Origin: Halopseudomonas oceani
GTDB taxonomy: Bacteria; Pseudomonadota; Gammaproteobacteria; Pseudomonadales; Pseudomonadaceae
DNA: 64,000 nucleotides
NCBI RefSeq assembly: GCF_002903165.1
Contig: NZ_PPSK01000001.1
Span: 186,001-250,000, forward strand
Direction of reading: 5' to 3'
Both the position numbers and the translations under genes were made by a program. Below are positions 4,964 through 13,578 of the stretch, in pieces. How positions within the stretch are numbered: position 1 is the first letter of the stretch; every line of letters starts with the position of its first letter. The notes below the pieces were generated by a model. The model searched no databases. It saw nothing but the letters and a program-made list of their open reading frames with translations, and was not told the DNA's origin.

Positions 4964-5743
4964 ATGCGAATCATCAGTCTTAACGTCAATGGAGTGAAGG
5001 CCGCCGCCGAGCGTGGCCTGTTTGACTGGCTGCGCACTCAGGATGCTGATGTCATCTGTCTGCAGGACATCCGCGTCACCGCCCCCGAACTGGAGCAGGA
5101 CCCGTACTGGCTGGACGGCTACTGGCAATATTGCTTCGAAGCCGAAACCCCGTCCCAGGGCGGTGTCGCGATCTACACCCGGGTCGCCCCCAAAGCGATC
5201 ATCATGGGTCTGGGCTTCGAGTCCGCCGACCGTTACGGCCGCTTCATGCAGGCCGACTTCGACAAGCTCAGCATCGGCTCACTGCTGCTGCCCTCCGGCC
5301 GTGACGGCGACGCCGACCTGAACCAGAAGTTCAAGTTCATGGAAGACTTCGCCAACTACCTGAACAAGCAGCGCCGCAAGCGCCGCGAATTCATCTACTG
5401 TGGCTCCCTGTATGTCGCCCACCTCAAGCTGGACGTAAAAAACTGGCGCGACTGCCAGAACGAACCCGGCTTCATGGCGCCCGAGCGAGCCTGGATGGAC
5501 GAGATCTTCGGCAACATGGGCTACGTCGATGCGCTACGCGAAGTCACCCGCGAGTCCGAGCTCTACAGCTGGTGGCCCAACAGCGAACAGGCGGAGAATC
5601 TCAACCTCGGCCTGCGCTTCGACTACCAGTTCCTGACTCCTGGCCTGCGCCGCTTCGTCAAACAGGCCAAAATCCCGCGCAATGCGCGCTTCTCTCAGCA
5701 CGCACCGGTGATTATCGACTACGACTGGACCCTGAGCATCTGA
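4964..5743 (+). CDS. crc: Catabolite repression control protein Crc
   Basis: Crc acts with Hfq on A-rich mRNA sites to repress translation of catabolic genes while preferred carbon sources are present. The 259-residue protein has the exonuclease III/endonuclease-exonuclease-phosphatase fold, but the nuclease residues are altered: LQD (Asp35) replaces the catalytic Glu of LQE, GSLY (147-150) replaces the GDxN motif, and SQHAPV (244-249) replaces SDHAPV. These are Crc features, and the length and position beside pyrE fit. The start at 4964 follows a GGGGGA ribosome-binding site. A strong terminator lies 66 bp downstream. Repair nuclease activity is unlikely. Confidence 0.96.
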   Translation: MRIISLNVNGVKAAAERGLFDWLRTQDADVICLQDIRVTAPELEQDPYWLDGYWQYCFEAETPSQGGVAIYTRVAPKAIIMGLGFESADRYGRFMQADFDKLSIGSLLLPSGRDGDADLNQKFKFMEDFANYLNKQRRKRREFIYCGSLYVAHLKLDVKNWRDCQNEPGFMAPERAWMDEIFGNMGYVDALREVTRESELYSWWPNSEQAENLNLGLRFDYQFLTPGLRRFVKQAKIPRNARFSQHAPVIIDYDWTLSI

Positions 5744-8136: not shown

Positions 8137-8637
8137 TCACTCCAGCGTGACCCGGATGTTGATCGGATGCTCGTCGCAGTTGTGGCCGGCACCACCGCGA
8201 TCAACCACCAGAAACTCCCCTTCACGCTCCAGCACCGACTGGATGGCATGCCAGGTGCCGATGCGGTAGTTGACGCCCTGGCGGCCGTCGGTGATGAAGG
8301 CGCGCACCTCGGCCGGATCAATCGCATCGCCCGGCGGCGCCACCACGATCAGAAACTGCTCCTCGTGCAGCGGCATAAACGCCTGACTGCCGAGCGGATG
8401 GCGCTCCAGAAAGGTCAGCTCCAGCGGCACGGTGACCGGCTGGCTGACAAAGATGCTGATCAGCACCCGCGGTGATTCACCGGCCACCTCAACCTTAGCC
8501 AGATCATGATGGCGACGGGTACGGCCCGCGTTGATCATGAAATGCGCGGAGCTGCGCACATCGATCACCTCACCGAATGCCGCGAAGGCCTCCGGTGTCA
8601 GGGGCTGGGCCGTCAGCTGCAACACGTCAGCACTCAT
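8137..8637 (-). CDS. allA: Ureidoglycolate lyase AllA
   Basis: AllA splits ureidoglycolate into glyoxylate and urea, the last step of ureide breakdown. The 166-residue cupin-like protein carries the family segments LTPEAFAAFGEVID (12-25), FLERHPLGSQAFMPL and WHAIQSVL. The start at 8637 follows GAGGAG with six bases between; that site overlaps the end of allE, so the genes are coupled. It is the last gene of the minus-strand operon puuE-allE-allA. The product urea would need urease or export, which this window does not encode. Confidence 0.93.
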   Translation of the reverse strand: MSADVLQLTAQPLTPEAFAAFGEVIDVRSSAHFMINAGRTRRHHDLAKVEVAGESPRVLISIFVSQPVTVPLELTFLERHPLGSQAFMPLHEEQFLIVVAPPGDAIDPAEVRAFITDGRQGVNYRIGTWHAIQSVLEREGEFLVVDRGGAGHNCDEHPINIRVTLE

Positions 8638-8647
8638 CTCCTGCTCC

Positions 8648-9493
8648 TCAACGGTCAAGCGCCGGCAGTTTCATGTGGCGGTTGACATCCTTGTACAGCA
8701 GGTAGCGGAACGGGCCGGGGCCGCCGGCATAGCATGCTTGCGGGCAGAAGGCGCGCAGCCACATGTAGTCGCCGGCTTCGACCTCAACCCAGTCCTTGTT
8801 CAGCAGATACACCGCCTTGCCTTCCAGCACATAGAGGCCGTGCTCCATGACGTGGGTCTCGGCAAAGGGAATCGCACCGCCCGGCTGGAAGTTGACGATA
8901 TTCACGTGCATGTCGTGGCGCATGTCGCTCATGTCGACAAAGCGAGTGGTGCTCCAGGCCCCGTCGGTGCCGGGCATCACCAGCGGCTCGATGTCATTTT
9001 CGTTGGTGACGAAAGCTTCCGGCGCGTCGATACCCTCGACTTTCTGGTAGGCCTTGCGAACCCAGTGGAAGCGCACCACAGCGCCGCTGTTGTTGTGCAG
9101 TTGCCAGTCGCTGCTTGGCGGAATAAAGGCGTAGCCGCCCTCTTTCATCAGATGCTGCTGACCGTTCAGGGTCAGCGTCATTTCGCCTTCCACCACGAAC
9201 AGCACGCCTTCGGCGGAGGCGTCGGTTTCCGGCTTGTCACTGCCGCCACCCGGTTGCACTTCCATGATGTACTGCGAAAAGGTTTCGGCAAAGCCGCTGA
9301 GCGGGCGCGACAGCACCCACAGACGGGTACCGGTCCAGAACGGCAGGTGGCTGGTAACGATATCGCGCATCACGCCCTTGGGAATCACCGCGTAGGCCTC
9401 GGTGAAGACCGCACGGTCGGTGGTCAGCTGCGTCTGCGGCGGGTGCCCGCCGGTTGGCGCGTAGTAGCTGCGGGGTTCGGATTGCTTGCTCAT
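8648..9493 (-). CDS. allE: (S)-ureidoglycine aminohydrolase AllE
   Basis: AllE releases ammonia from (S)-ureidoglycine, giving (S)-ureidoglycolate for AllA. The 281-residue protein has two cupin halves: GEMTLTLNGQQHLMKEGGYAF in the first, and FAETHVMEHGLYVLEGKAVY with metal-ligand type E/H/H residues in the second. It matches the bicupin YlbA/AllE family in length. The ATG at 9493 overlaps the puuE stop by four bases (ATGA), indicating tight coupling. Its presence implies a route through ureidoglycine, although no allantoate-hydrolysing gene is in view. Confidence 0.93.
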   Translation of the reverse strand: MSKQSEPRSYYAPTGGHPPQTQLTTDRAVFTEAYAVIPKGVMRDIVTSHLPFWTGTRLWVLSRPLSGFAETFSQYIMEVQPGGGSDKPETDASAEGVLFVVEGEMTLTLNGQQHLMKEGGYAFIPPSSDWQLHNNSGAVVRFHWVRKAYQKVEGIDAPEAFVTNENDIEPLVMPGTDGAWSTTRFVDMSDMRHDMHVNIVNFQPGGAIPFAETHVMEHGLYVLEGKAVYLLNKDWVEVEAGDYMWLRAFCPQACYAGGPGPFRYLLYKDVNRHMKLPALDR

Positions 9494-10431
9494 GCTGACT
9501 CCTGGTTCTGTGCGGGATGATGCTCGGCCCAATGGCGGGCGATATCGACACGGCGTGTCACCCAGACCCGATCATGGGATTCGATGTAATCAAGAAAACG
9601 CTGCAGCGCGCGGAAGCGGCCGGGGCGGCCGATCAACCGGCAGTGCAGACCGATCGACAGCATCTTCGGCAGGTCTTCACCCTCAGCGTAGAGCACGTCG
9701 AAAGCGTCTTTCAGATACTGAAAGAAGTGGTCGCCGGTGTTGAAGCCCTGCGGTGAGGCAAAGCGCATGTCGTTAGTATCGAGAGTGTAAGGCACGATCA
9801 GGTGATTGTGCAGCGCGCCGGCGCTGTCCGCCTCACGGGTCCAGAACGGCAGATCATCACCGTAGTAGTCGCTGTCATAGAGGAAACCGCCCTGATCCAG
9901 CAGCAGACGCCGGGTGTTGGGGCTGTCCCGCCCGGTGTACCAGCCCTCCGGTTGACTGCCGTAGAGGCGCTGGAAGATGTCCAGTGCACGCTGCAGGTGC
10001 TCGCGCTCAACCGCTTCGGGGATGTTCTGGTAGTGAATCCAGCGCCAGCCGTGGCAGGCGATTTCGTGGCCCAACTCATGGAACGCCTGGGCTACTTCCG
10101 GATGCCGCTCAAGTGCCATCGCCACGCCAAACACGGTCAACGGCAAACCGCGCCTCTCGAATTCGTTGAGCAGGCGCCAGACACCCACCCGCGAGCCGTA
10201 CTCGTAGATCGACTCCATGCTCATATGGCGATCATCGAACGCCGCCGCACCAATGATTTCCGACAGGAACTGCTCGGAGTGGCTGTCGCCGTGCAGCACA
10301 CAGTTCTCACCGCCCTCTTCGTAGTTGAGCACAAATTGAACGGCGATCCGCGCACGGCCGGGCCAACGGGCTTCCGGCGGGGTGCGGCCGTAGCCGATCA
10401 GATCGCGTGGATACACAGCGCTATCGATCAT
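9490..10431 (-). CDS. puuE: Cofactor-independent allantoinase PuuE
   Basis: PuuE opens the hydantoin ring of allantoin to give allantoate. The 313-residue protein belongs to the polysaccharide-deacetylase (NodB-like) superfamily, with RIAVQFVLNYEEGGEN near 27-42, GHEIACHGWRW near 121-131 and SIGLHCRLIGRPGR near the C-terminus, as in the P. fluorescens type enzyme. It is the first gene of the minus-strand operon and diverges from the racemase gene across a 150-bp control region. It is structurally unrelated to the metal-dependent AllB allantoinase. Confidence 0.93.
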   Translation of the reverse strand: MIDSAVYPRDLIGYGRTPPEARWPGRARIAVQFVLNYEEGGENCVLHGDSHSEQFLSEIIGAAAFDDRHMSMESIYEYGSRVGVWRLLNEFERRGLPLTVFGVAMALERHPEVAQAFHELGHEIACHGWRWIHYQNIPEAVEREHLQRALDIFQRLYGSQPEGWYTGRDSPNTRRLLLDQGGFLYDSDYYGDDLPFWTREADSAGALHNHLIVPYTLDTNDMRFASPQGFNTGDHFFQYLKDAFDVLYAEGEDLPKMLSIGLHCRLIGRPGRFRALQRFLDYIESHDRVWVTRRVDIARHWAEHHPAQNQESA

Positions 10432-10528
10432 TAAGACACCTCTTTCGCTGAAGAAAGCCTGCAGTTCGAGTACGTAGTGCTTATTACGCGCGATAACTGC
10501 AAGGCATTTTGATTTTTTGACTCAGACG

Positions 10529-10562
10529 ATTGTATACAATTAATCTACTCTTTTGTGTACAT
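10529..10562. promoter_or_regulatory. Probable GntR operator pair in the puuE/racemase divergent promoter
   Basis: A perfect 12-bp palindrome ATTGTATACAAT lies at 10529-10540. A degenerate copy, TTGTGTACAT (8/10), lies at 10553-10562 with 23 bp between the centres. TTGTATACAA-type palindromes are known targets of FadR/FCD-type GntR regulators, and such a gene is at 12823-13578. A TTGACT hexamer at 10517-10522 could be part of the promoter of the rightward genes. Binding is inferred. Confidence 0.65.
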
Positions 10563-10581
10563 ACATGGGCAGGCCAGATTC

Positions 10582-11325
10582 ATGCATATTCGCGTCATCA
10601 ACCCGAACACCACCCACGCCATGACCGAGACCATCGGCGAGGCGGCCAAAGCGGTTGCCGCACCCGGCACGCGGATCACTGCCAGCCAGCCAGACAGCGG
10701 CCCGGTGTCGATCGAAAGCCATTTCGACGAGGCGGTAAGTGCCCTGGGCGTCGTTGAGGAAGTGCGCGCCGGTGAGCGCGAAGGCACCGATGCCTACATC
10801 ATTGCCTGCTTTGGCGACCCCGGCTTGTATGCCGCTCGCGAGCTGACCCGCGCCCCGGTGATCGGCATCGCCGAAGCCGCATTCCATGTCGCCAGTCTGA
10901 TCAGCACCCGCTTCTCGGTGGTTACCACCCTGCCGCGCACCCTGATCATCGCCGAGCATCTGCTCGACAATTACGGCTTCCGCCACAGCTGCCGACGCCT
11001 GCGCGCCGCCGACATTCCGGTGCTGGATCTGGAAGAGAACCCGGATATCGCACTCGAGCGCATCATCGACGAGTGTCTGAAGGCCAAGCGCGAAGACAAC
11101 ATCGGCGCCATCGTGCTTGGTTGCGGTGGCATGGCCGACCTGACCCCGCAGATCAGCGACGCGGTCGGTCTGCCCGTGGTGGAAGGCGTAACCGCCGCAG
11201 TGAAGCTGGCCGAAGCCGTGGTTGGGCTGGGGCTGGGTACCAGCAAATTTGGCGATTTGGCGTTTCCGGGCAGCAAGCGCTTCACCGGACGCTTTGCCGA
11301 GTATTCTGATCTGGCCCACGGCTGA
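10582..11325 (+). CDS. Allantoin/hydantoin racemase (Asp/Glu racemase family)
   Basis: A 247-residue HyuE/HpxA-type racemase that would interconvert the allantoin enantiomers so that a stereospecific allantoinase can use both. The start MHIRVINPNTT at 10582 is the family N-terminus. The two catalytic cysteines of the Asp/Glu racemase fold are seen as YIIACFGDPG (Cys76) and VLGCGGMADL (Cys181). Divergent from puuE and followed 99 bp later by the permease gene, it fits an allantoin role better than general hydantoin use. The exact substrate is inferred from context. Confidence 0.88.
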   Translation: MHIRVINPNTTHAMTETIGEAAKAVAAPGTRITASQPDSGPVSIESHFDEAVSALGVVEEVRAGEREGTDAYIIACFGDPGLYAARELTRAPVIGIAEAAFHVASLISTRFSVVTTLPRTLIIAEHLLDNYGFRHSCRRLRAADIPVLDLEENPDIALERIIDECLKAKREDNIGAIVLGCGGMADLTPQISDAVGLPVVEGVTAAVKLAEAVVGLGLGTSKFGDLAFPGSKRFTGRFAEYSDLAHG

Positions 11326-11424
11326 TCAGGTGACAGCGCGCCCCGCGGGGCAAACACAAAAAAACCGCAGGATCGGATGATCCGGGGAGACAACAATGCA
11401 CAACACAGCCCACGGGGGAGTCTC

Positions 11425-12783
11425 ATGAACACTGACGCCAGCACGCTCACCGCCGGCAGCCAGCCGAGCAACGAAACCAAGGCCGCCGGCGAGGAGTCCC
11501 TCGCGCCCCAGAAGGTTCGCATTATGGGGCGCTTGTCCTATCTGCTGGCCTGGTTTGGTGGTTGCGTTTCAATCGGCACCTTTACCATGGGCTCCAGCGT
11601 GGTCGGCAGCCTGAACCTGATCCAGGCCACCCTGGCGATTGCCATTGGCTGCTTCGTCATTGGCGTTGCCCTGGTCTTGAACGGCGCCGCCGGTTACAAA
11701 TACGGCATCCCGTTCATGGTGCAGGCGCGCAGCGCCTTCGGCTTCGCCGGCACCCGACTACCCGGCCTGGTGCGCGCGGTTCCCGCGATCGTCTGGTACG
11801 GCTTCCAGAGCTGGATTGGCGCCGGCGCCCTGAACATGGTGTCCGCCACCCTGTTCGGCTTCGACAATCTGGTGTTCTTCTTTGTCGCCTTCCAGTTCCT
11901 GCAGATTGGTCTTTCGGTCATGGGCTTTCAGGGCATCAAGTGGCTGGAGAATGTCGGCAGCGCCTTTATCCTCGCCTCACTGGTCTACATGTTCTACAGC
12001 ACCGTGCAGCGCTACGGTGACGAACTGTCGGGCAGTCTGCTGACCATGCAGGGCTCATGGGGCCTGCCGTTCTGGAGTGCGACCATGCTGTTCCTCGGCA
12101 TCTACAGCACCATGATCCTCAACGTCAGCGACTACGCCCGTGAGCACAAACACGGCACCGGCCCCGGCCTGCTGACCACCATTTACTCGATGTCGATTCT
12201 GCCCTGCACCTTGTTCATGGGCCTGATCGGGTACATGGTCTCCGAGGCCACCGGCGTCGCCGACCCGATTCAGGTGTTTGCCAACGCGGTCGACAACACC
12301 CCGCTGCTGATGACCACCCTGCTGTTCATCGCCTTCGCTCAGGTCACCACCAACGTACTGAACAACGTGGTGCCACCAACCTACGTGCTAATGGATGTAT
12401 TCAAGCTGAAGTTCCGACCGGCTACCGTGATCGTCGGCCTGCTGGCCTTCGCGACCTTCCCGTGGAAACTGGTCAGCGAAGATTCAGCCGCCGGCCTGCA
12501 GGTGTTCGTGCAGACCTACTCGGCCTTCCTCGGCCCGATCTTCGCGATTCTGGTGGTGGACTACTATCTGATCCGCAAGCGTACGCTGAATCTGGAGCAC
12601 CTGTACGACGCCAACGGCCCGTATCAGGGGGTCAACTACGCCGCGCTGATCGCTACCGCCATTGGTGCCGTGGTCGCACTGAACGTATCCAGTGTGTCCT
12701 GGTATGCCAGCCTGATCCCGGCCGGGGTCAGCTACTACCTGCTGATGCAATACTGGGGTCCCTGCCAGCGCTTCCGCCGCTGA
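11425..12783 (+). CDS. NCS1 family allantoin/nucleobase permease (PucI-like)
   Basis: A 452-residue NCS1 cation symporter with about 12 hydrophobic segments, such as LLAWFGGCVSIGTFTMGSSVVG near the N-terminus. The YGIPFMVQARSAFG loop and WYGFQSWIGAGALN are NCS1 motifs that line the substrate path. A hydrophilic N-terminal tail of about 35 residues precedes the first helix. The start at 11425 follows GGGGGAG. Lying among allantoin genes, it most likely imports allantoin or a related ureide; uracil, hydantoin or another purine base remain possible. Confidence 0.88.
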   Translation: MNTDASTLTAGSQPSNETKAAGEESLAPQKVRIMGRLSYLLAWFGGCVSIGTFTMGSSVVGSLNLIQATLAIAIGCFVIGVALVLNGAAGYKYGIPFMVQARSAFGFAGTRLPGLVRAVPAIVWYGFQSWIGAGALNMVSATLFGFDNLVFFFVAFQFLQIGLSVMGFQGIKWLENVGSAFILASLVYMFYSTVQRYGDELSGSLLTMQGSWGLPFWSATMLFLGIYSTMILNVSDYAREHKHGTGPGLLTTIYSMSILPCTLFMGLIGYMVSEATGVADPIQVFANAVDNTPLLMTTLLFIAFAQVTTNVLNNVVPPTYVLMDVFKLKFRPATVIVGLLAFATFPWKLVSEDSAAGLQVFVQTYSAFLGPIFAILVVDYYLIRKRTLNLEHLYDANGPYQGVNYAALIATAIGAVVALNVSSVSWYASLIPAGVSYYLLMQYWGPCQRFRR

Positions 12784-12822: not shown

Positions 12823-13578
12823 TCAGCCGCGATAGGCGGCGAAGATATCCTGCAAATCCGGCGTGGTCTGCGGCGAGTCGGCAATCGCCAGCGAGCCCTC
12901 AATGGCATCCAGATGCTGCGCCATGAAAGCGGCAGCCGCCTCACCATCCCGAGCTTCCAGCAGCGTGATCAGGCGGCTGTGATCGGTACAATCGCAGCCC
13001 AGATTCCCGGCGTTGCCGTACACCGCCAGAATCAACGATGAGCGCGAACACAGCTGGACGACAAAACTCGCCAGCGTCTGATTACCGGCCAGCACCGCCA
13101 GCCGACTGTGAAACTCCGCCGAGCACTTGATCGCTGCACTCTGATCGCGCGCCGCCAATGCCTGCTGCTCCTGCTCGGCCAGCGCGCGCAACGCCGCCAG
13201 CGCCGCCTCATCAATCTGCCGCGCCAGTTGCCGCATCAGGCCACATTCCACCATCCGCCGCGCATCAAAGACTTCCCGTGCCTCCTCGGCGGACGGCCGG
13301 GTGACACTGGCGCCCTTGCCCGGTGTCAGGGTGACCAGCTGATCCATGGCGAGGCGCTGCAGCACCTTGCGAATACCGGTTCTGCTGACCCCGAACACCT
13401 CAGCCAGCGCATCCTCACGCAAACGCGCCCCCGGCTGCAGCCGGTGCTCGATGATGGCGTCGCTGATGGCCTGATAGATTCGATCCTGACGCAATGCGCC
13501 GGCACCGGAAGCCGGCGCCGTGGCAGCAGTTCTGTGATCAGCAGCGCGCAACGCTGATGAAATCCGACGTGCGGTCAT
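12823..13578 (-). CDS. GntR family (FCD domain) transcriptional regulator
   Basis: A 251-residue regulator. After an Ala-rich tail (1-28), the winged-helix domain (about 32-95) shows LREDALAEVFGVSRTGIRKVLQRL and the wing LTLTPGKGASV. The C-terminal FCD domain (about 105-235) contains EFHSRL and DHSRLITLLEARD, positions that bind a metal or small acid in the family. It converges on the permease gene of the allantoin block, so it probably controls that block. The likely operator is the palindrome at 10529. No similar palindrome is seen before this gene, so self-control is not evident. Confidence 0.9.
   Translation of the reverse strand: MTARRISSALRAADHRTAATAPASGAGALRQDRIYQAISDAIIEHRLQPGARLREDALAEVFGVSRTGIRKVLQRLAMDQLVTLTPGKGASVTRPSAEEAREVFDARRMVECGLMRQLARQIDEAALAALRALAEQEQQALAARDQSAAIKCSAEFHSRLAVLAGNQTLASFVVQLCSRSSLILAVYGNAGNLGCDCTDHSRLITLLEARDGEAAAAFMAQHLDAIEGSLAIADSPQTTPDLQDIFAAYRG

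Follow-up and report, generated by a model that had tools for sequence, protein, structure and literature searches.

Two short sequences in the gap between the divergent puuE and racemase genes of Halopseudomonas oceani very probably (at a probability of about 0.9) are tandem operators of the HpxS-type GntR-FCD regulator that is encoded in the same allantoin cassette. The sites were predicted by sequence comparison in a window of 64,000 nucleotides, the window being the whole stretch of DNA that was analysed. An earlier note on this DNA had proposed them as operators of the allantoin GntR regulator. The proposal is supported by conservation within the genus, by co-occurrence with the regulator and by a Klebsiella regulator whose recognition helix is identical and whose gene is likewise preceded by a tandem pair of such sites.

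Tandem operators of the HpxS kind have already been described for Klebsiella, and the principle itself is known. The new parts are the extension to Halopseudomonas and its relatives and the compact shared layout. Among the literature matches listed by title for the literal 10-mer, nothing was found on allantoin or GntR, and no literature was found on CTTGTATACAAG. The literature search gave no confirmation of the presumed B. subtilis gluconate operator. The extension to Halopseudomonas and its relatives was not found among the matches listed in the literature searches, the supplementary site lists of PMC4494728 lying outside that search.

The allantoin cassette and its paired sites

The genes of the cassette and the two predicted sites are as follows.

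8137-8658, minus strand: ureidoglycolate lyase (PF04115; NF009932 (PRK13395) above cut-off)
8648-9532, minus strand: (S)-ureidoglycine aminohydrolase, of which the ORF start may be internal (profile match; also above the NF040771 cut-off)
9490-10431, minus strand: puuE allantoinase, which opens the left operon (TIGR03212, 524 bits, cut-off 424.6)
10432-10581, no strand: divergent intergenic region of 150 bp (41% GC, compared to 61.6% GC for the window)
10529-10540, no strand: predicted operator site 1, ATTGTATACAAT, a perfect palindrome (from sequence; unchanged in 15 of 15 genus loci)
10553-10562, no strand: predicted operator site 2, TTGTGTACAT (from sequence; first nine bases the same in 15 of 15 genus loci)
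10582-11325, plus strand: Asp/Glu/hydantoin-family racemase, first gene of the right operon (PF01177)
11377-12783, plus strand: NCS1 permease, start possibly at 11425 (PF02133; under the NCBIfam allantoin-permease cut-offs)
12823-13578, minus strand: HpxS-related GntR regulator of the FCD/FadR type, proposed to bind both sites (PF00392 and PF07729)

The perfect palindrome, a second copy 23 bp away at near two helical turns and the location between divergent puuE and racemase genes had all been read from the sequence in the earlier note, and each was found again. Both sites lie inside the 150-bp gap, and their 10-base cores start at 10530 and 10553, which corresponds to about 2.2 turns. The GntR-FCD gene, described there as ending the cassette at 12823, runs from 13578 to 12823 on the minus strand, so that 12823 is its stop. 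It is convergent and located at the far end of the cassette, and is not the first gene of an operon that it would control. The domain scores of the regulator were 61.9 bits for PF00392 and 78.4 bits for PF07729, both above cut-off. Twenty NCBIfam models were listed for this protein, and it stayed below their cut-offs.

The racemase start is likely ATG 10582 and not GTG 10555 of the ORF list; the former (MHIRVINPNTT) is present in all 15 genus loci. The assignment of the enzyme as an allantoin racemase is by context only, and the NCS1 permease perhaps transports allantoin. The aminohydrolase at 8648-9532 passed the cut-off of NF040771, a model for a bifunctional allantoicase/(S)-ureidoglycine aminohydrolase. 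A bifunctional enzyme of this type would explain why no separate allantoicase was seen among the scored cassette proteins.

The palindrome was rejected as significant by itself, because palindrome and loose-motif counts matched expectation or control. The window contains 22 perfect 12-bp palindromes, against 21.4 expected, and five matches to TTGTATACAA with up to two mismatches, against 6.07 expected. In the whole genome, TTGTNTACAA with one mismatch gave 155 and 146 matches compared to 132 and 142 for the reversed control, which is no enrichment. The exact 10-mer occurs as a single copy in the 4.16-Mb genome. It is because of its conservation that the pair is considered real and beyond chance.

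Conservation of the pair

A close racemase was found in 15 of the 37 genomes of the genus (83-99% identity, besides the window's own), and five others had distant matches only. The same 15 genomes encode the GntR regulator at 65-100% identity, and the match that ranks next by E-value has 36%. The pair pattern was found in 15 of 398 genomes of the family, and these were the Halopseudomonas genomes with the close racemase; the reversed control gave none. ATTGTATACAATTA (10529-10542) and TTGTGTACA were invariant in all 15 aligned genus loci and the spacing was unchanged. Within the two sites 21 of 22 columns were invariant, only 10562 varying, compared to 9 of the 128 other columns of the gap. 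When the racemase genes were codon-aligned, identity to the window at third positions was 88% in the sister strain but 51-62% in the other 13 loci. The T that makes the last base of site 2 appear degenerate is shared by the window and its sister strain, and TTGTGTACAA is found in 13 of the 15 loci.

Conservation of the palindrome upstream of homologous puuE genes, the check named in the earlier note, was borne out for the cassette. Nineteen puuE genes were found in 17 of the 37 genomes. Fifteen of them are of the cassette type, and all of these have the pair. The other four (genomes G000, G002, G030 and G032) are not located at a pair, single sites having been checked in G000.

Beyond the genus, the best 80 of 199 racemase relatives (74-99% identity) were kept from an alignment scan, eight of them being Halopseudomonas-group records that are also in the genus set. 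TTGTATACAA, TTGTGTACAA or TTGTACACAA was present at most 150 bp upstream of the racemase start in 74 of the 80 loci. Near the racemase starts 83 sites were counted in 12,000 bp, compared to 39 in 980,447 bp elsewhere, and 31 of these 39 fall 178-613 bp upstream of the racemase. Exact TTGTATACAA was found in 18 of the 80 loci; 19 other palindromes with its base composition served as a control, and none of them occurred in any locus. The 63 distances between neighbouring sites in the best 80 loci were 22 bp in 45 cases, 23 bp in 11 and other values in 7. With a looser definition a 22/23-bp pair was present in 57 of the 80 loci, the remaining 23 having one site, another spacing or none. As a control, the pair was counted in stretches taken from these loci 1.5 kb or more away from the start of the racemase, and it was found in 6 of 20,000 random and 19 of 3,000 AT-richer ones. 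A class-wide racemase search gave matches in 13 of 369 genomes at E <= 1e-40. An HpxS-like rule, TTGTRTACAA, often in tandem at 22-23 bp, can be followed through Halopseudomonas, Halomonas, Marinobacter and their relatives.

Co-occurrence with the GntR regulator

Of the 71 genomes that encode a close orthologue of the GntR regulator, 70 have the site, compared to 4 of the 9 that encode none (Fisher p = 3e-5, uncorrected for kinship and linkage). Co-occurrence of site and regulator is partly linkage, because the cassette is inherited as a block. In the fetched stretches, a GntR of at least 58% identity was found in 53 loci, all of which have the site. A distant GntR (38-43%) was found in five loci, two of them with the site, and the whole-genome search of these five genomes found nothing above 47%. 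Neither a close nor a distant GntR was seen in the stretches of the remaining 22 loci, 19 of which have the site. When the whole genomes of these 22 were searched, an orthologue of 62-67% identity was found in 18, six of these matches crossing one stop codon, and only relatives of 27-42% were found in L151, L175, L183 and L190. The sole genome with a close orthologue and no site, L126, reads TTGTATACAT. Four loci (L151, L174, L175 and L185) have the site without a close orthologue in the genome, their best GntR matches being 27-42% identical, and because of these another GntR may use the site.

Five loci have neither the site nor a close orthologue. Three of them, from Azoarcus (L176) and Aromatoleum (L181 and L191), still show a degenerate pair with a spacing of 22 bp, in which TTGTGTCCAA is combined with GTGGATACAA or ATGGATACAA. 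It is located upstream of a GntR-racemase-permease-puuE run (at about 5119-5151), the GntR being 40-43% identical. The more distant Photobacterium (L195) and Rhizobium (L197) loci have related single sites and no 22/23-bp pair.

Relation to HpxS, UgmR and the FadR subfamily

The closest described system is that of HpxS in Klebsiella pneumoniae (Guzman et al. 2011, PMID 21357483). In locus L193 a GntR (44% identity over 243 aa), a racemase (59%) and puuE (68%) are encoded in a row. The same row is found in a second Klebsiella record (L194, CP125156.1), with a stop inside the hpxS-like GntR reading that is open in L193; its annotation adds a divergent NCS1 gene with guaD beyond. This is the order of hpxSAB, hpxC and guaD, and the Klebsiella GntR was assigned as HpxS from this gene order. 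Linkage of the GntR gene to racemase and PuuE allantoinase genes, a mark of the HpxS type, is also found in the window cassette.

The gap upstream of the Klebsiella GntR gene contains TTGTATACAA and ATGTATACGA, 22 bp apart, and in both Klebsiella stretches a further TTGTATACAA lies within the NCS1 gene. The window and Klebsiella regulators share an identical recognition helix, VSRTGIRKVLQRLA. It was found exactly in 9 of 64 proteins of the group, and exactly or as a V/I variant in 53 of 64. HpxS reportedly binds a tandem pair of sites, named S1 and S2, that overlap the promoter of hpxSAB, and with allantoin it may act as an activator as well as a repressor. The Klebsiella likeness extends from the regulator (44%, identical helix) to a cluster with racemase and puuE, a divergent NCS1 gene and a tandem pair. 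The TTGTATACAA/ATGTATACGA pair is presumably the mapped S1/S2 of HpxS.

Several differences to HpxS were also observed. The regulator gene is first in Klebsiella, but convergent and last in the window cassette, which is a difference of layout and not of function, and the Klebsiella NCS1 protein is only 24% identical to the window permease. The window pair is located between the puuE and racemase operons with a spacing of 23 bp, compared to 22 bp in Klebsiella, and ureidoglycine/ureidoglycolate genes belong to the window cassette.

A tree was built from 38 of the 72 rows of the GntR alignment, from which matches that contain a stop or are shorter than 190 aa had been excluded. The proteins of Klebsiella and Photobacterium joined the cassette regulators at 95/95; the program warned that the branches of these two are long and that the join may be false. 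The Pseudomonas aeruginosa protein of locus L196 fell outside this group. In the plasmid collection 436 records had a GntR match, five of which were examined. Three histidines of the FCD domain are kept in all 72 proteins. In the region of residues 153/157, four residues before the first FCD histidine, 58 of the 64 group members have a Ser, and 5 of 8 comparison GntR proteins have an Asp at that position. The metal or ligand site of the cassette GntR group may therefore differ.

The L196 protein is 41% identical to the window regulator, has puuE, uraH and an NCS2 permease as neighbours, and was taken to be UgmR (PA1520) from gene order. According to passages of PMC12694930, UgmR represses allantoin genes and is relieved by uric acid, not by allantoin. 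The L196 stretch contains TTGTATACAA three times, but the sites do not form a 22/23-bp pair and the stretch has no racemase match. An assignment of the window regulator to the UgmR-type urate regulators was rejected, given the 41% identity, the place of L196 in the tree and the absence of uraH and uraD among the seven window proteins scored. Glyoxylate carboligase, a further target as for UgmR, gave a genome match under cut-off only. PA1520 was not found in the main text of the P. aeruginosa SELEX atlas.

The earlier note had also described the sites as being of the kind bound by FCD-type GntR proteins, and the sequence fits this description. Passages of Suvorova et al. 2015 (PMC4494728) give TKGT/ACMA as FadR-subfamily consensus, with 2-3 nt between GT and AC, and list GntR, HpxS and HypR among the groups with 2 nt. 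Site 1, TTGT-AT-ACAA, fits TKGT-N2-ACMA; site 2, TTGT-GT-ACAT, fits except for its last base. Both would thus be sites of the 2-nt class.

Promoters and proposed mechanism

Candidate promoter boxes were placed around the sites.

10506-10511, minus strand: CAAAAT, possibly the -10 box for puuE and its operon, in which case site 1 would occupy the -35 region (by eye; weak)
10517-10522, plus strand: likely -35 box of the racemase-permease promoter, TTGACT (in 11 of 15 genus loci site 1 is preceded by TTGAC[TCG])
10541-10546, plus strand: TAATCT at spacer 18, possibly the -10 box of the same promoter (weak match)

The placement was made by inference, because a consensus sigma-70 scan (spacers 16-18, at least 9 of 12 letters) listed no promoter. 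A rival -10 box, ATTAAT at spacer 16, is one letter better than TAATCT in the window. A weak -10 box at spacer 18 is present in nine of the 11 genus loci with the TTGAC box, and the other four of the 15 loci have no TTGAC box.

We infer binding, cooperation, the promoter boxes, repression, the effector and control of puuE from this arrangement. One GntR dimer would bind to each site, and two dimers about two turns apart would lie on roughly the same face of the DNA and probably cooperate. In the racemase-permease promoter, site 1 would fill the spacer that separates the likely -35 box from the -10 box, and site 2 would be near the start; it is therefore proposed that the bound regulator blocks RNA polymerase. 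Site 1 adjoins the presumed puuE promoter region, and the regulator may hold puuE off too. Binding of allantoin or a breakdown product to the FCD domain would lift repression; alternatively the effector could turn repression into activation, as reported for HpxS. In either case, uptake, racemisation and breakdown of allantoin would be switched on.

For the control of puuE there is a second reading. The pair could be the operator of the cassette GntR for racemase and permease only, puuE and the genes downstream of it being expressed from an independent promoter, and this we regard as a real possibility short of an even chance. In the sister strain (L112) the pair is close to the racemase, the centres being 47 and 24 bp from its ATG and 103 and 126 bp from puuE. 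The divergent Klebsiella gene hpxC is reportedly not induced by allantoin, which also speaks for one-sided control. Furthermore, many Halomonas loci, six Marinobacter loci and one Alcanivorax locus have an extra site of their own on the puuE side (WTGTATACAA-like), and the compact Halopseudomonas gap is without such a separate site. These puuE-side sites are 70-79 bp from puuE in the seven Marinobacter and Alcanivorax loci, three of the seven being one letter off. Where the gap is shortest (L114 and L117), however, site 1 itself is 69 bp from puuE, the puuE starts being extrapolated from protein matches. As site 1 is there located about where the Marinobacter and Alcanivorax puuE-side site is, an operator shared by both operons is plausible. 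Where a divergon has two sites a constant distance apart, PMC4494728 interprets them as controlling both operons or one of them, depending on position.

Returning to shared control, we tentatively suggest that the Halopseudomonas gap shrank and that site 1 came to serve in place of a separate site near puuE, giving one two-dimer switch for both operons. The GntR would sense allantoin or allantoate through an FCD pocket in which Ser replaces the usual Asp metal ligand. This detailed scenario is held with less than even confidence. The locus offers a clean pair for studying one FCD regulator over back-to-back promoters.

Other regulators and the second puuE locus

The sites could instead be bound by some other regulator, such as a UgmR-like paralogue or a protein of the MarR/OhrR type, but this was judged improbable. 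Genome matches to WTGTRTACAW were the two sites of the pair, ATGTATACAT at C1:305837, TTGTGTACAA at C2:32401 and two on C20 (53211 and 53609), and the reversed control gave 2 and 0 matches. The match at G000:C2:32401 (L068:1500-1515), the only other TTGTGTACAA among them, is upstream of an OsmC/Ohr-like gene. It presumably is an unrelated OhrR-type site, and is one of two observations that would favour a different regulator; the other is the four genomes that keep the site without a close orthologue. Against this stand the confinement of the pair to cassette genomes in the family sample, the near-complete presence of the site where a close orthologue is found, and the Klebsiella cluster with the same helix and similar sites.

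The genome itself provides a further argument. A second puuE is encoded in a purine-breakdown cluster (L061, G000:C29:11000-25630), in which xanthine dehydrogenase xdhAB, a purine ABC transporter, a TetR/RutR-like gene, a canonical allantoicase and ureidoglycolate lyase were recognized by eye, only puuE being family-scored. TTGTATACAA is absent from this 14.6-kb stretch, in which a TetR-like gene is located, and the core was matched there only once and loosely. Because the genome has a second puuE in another cluster, the window cassette is seen as a separate module, and the two allantoinase modules of one genome are probably under different regulators. The sites thereby predict which of the two puuE loci answers to the cassette GntR.

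It is very improbable that the conserved blocks are core promoter elements, namely spacer and -10 box, and not operators. They are positioned where the racemase promoter is expected, but two palindromes of one sequence at fixed spacing were found, and these recur next to puuE and in arrangements with different presumed boxes. A promoter spacer is normally not conserved letter by letter. A chance palindrome, for which the unremarkable number of such palindromes in the window would speak, is refuted by the invariance and the cross-genus recurrence and has a negligible probability.

The gap contains one further element on the puuE side, an inverted repeat TTAT-N8-ATAA at 10481-10496, which was seen by eye in 8 of the 15 genus loci and is possibly the site of another regulator.
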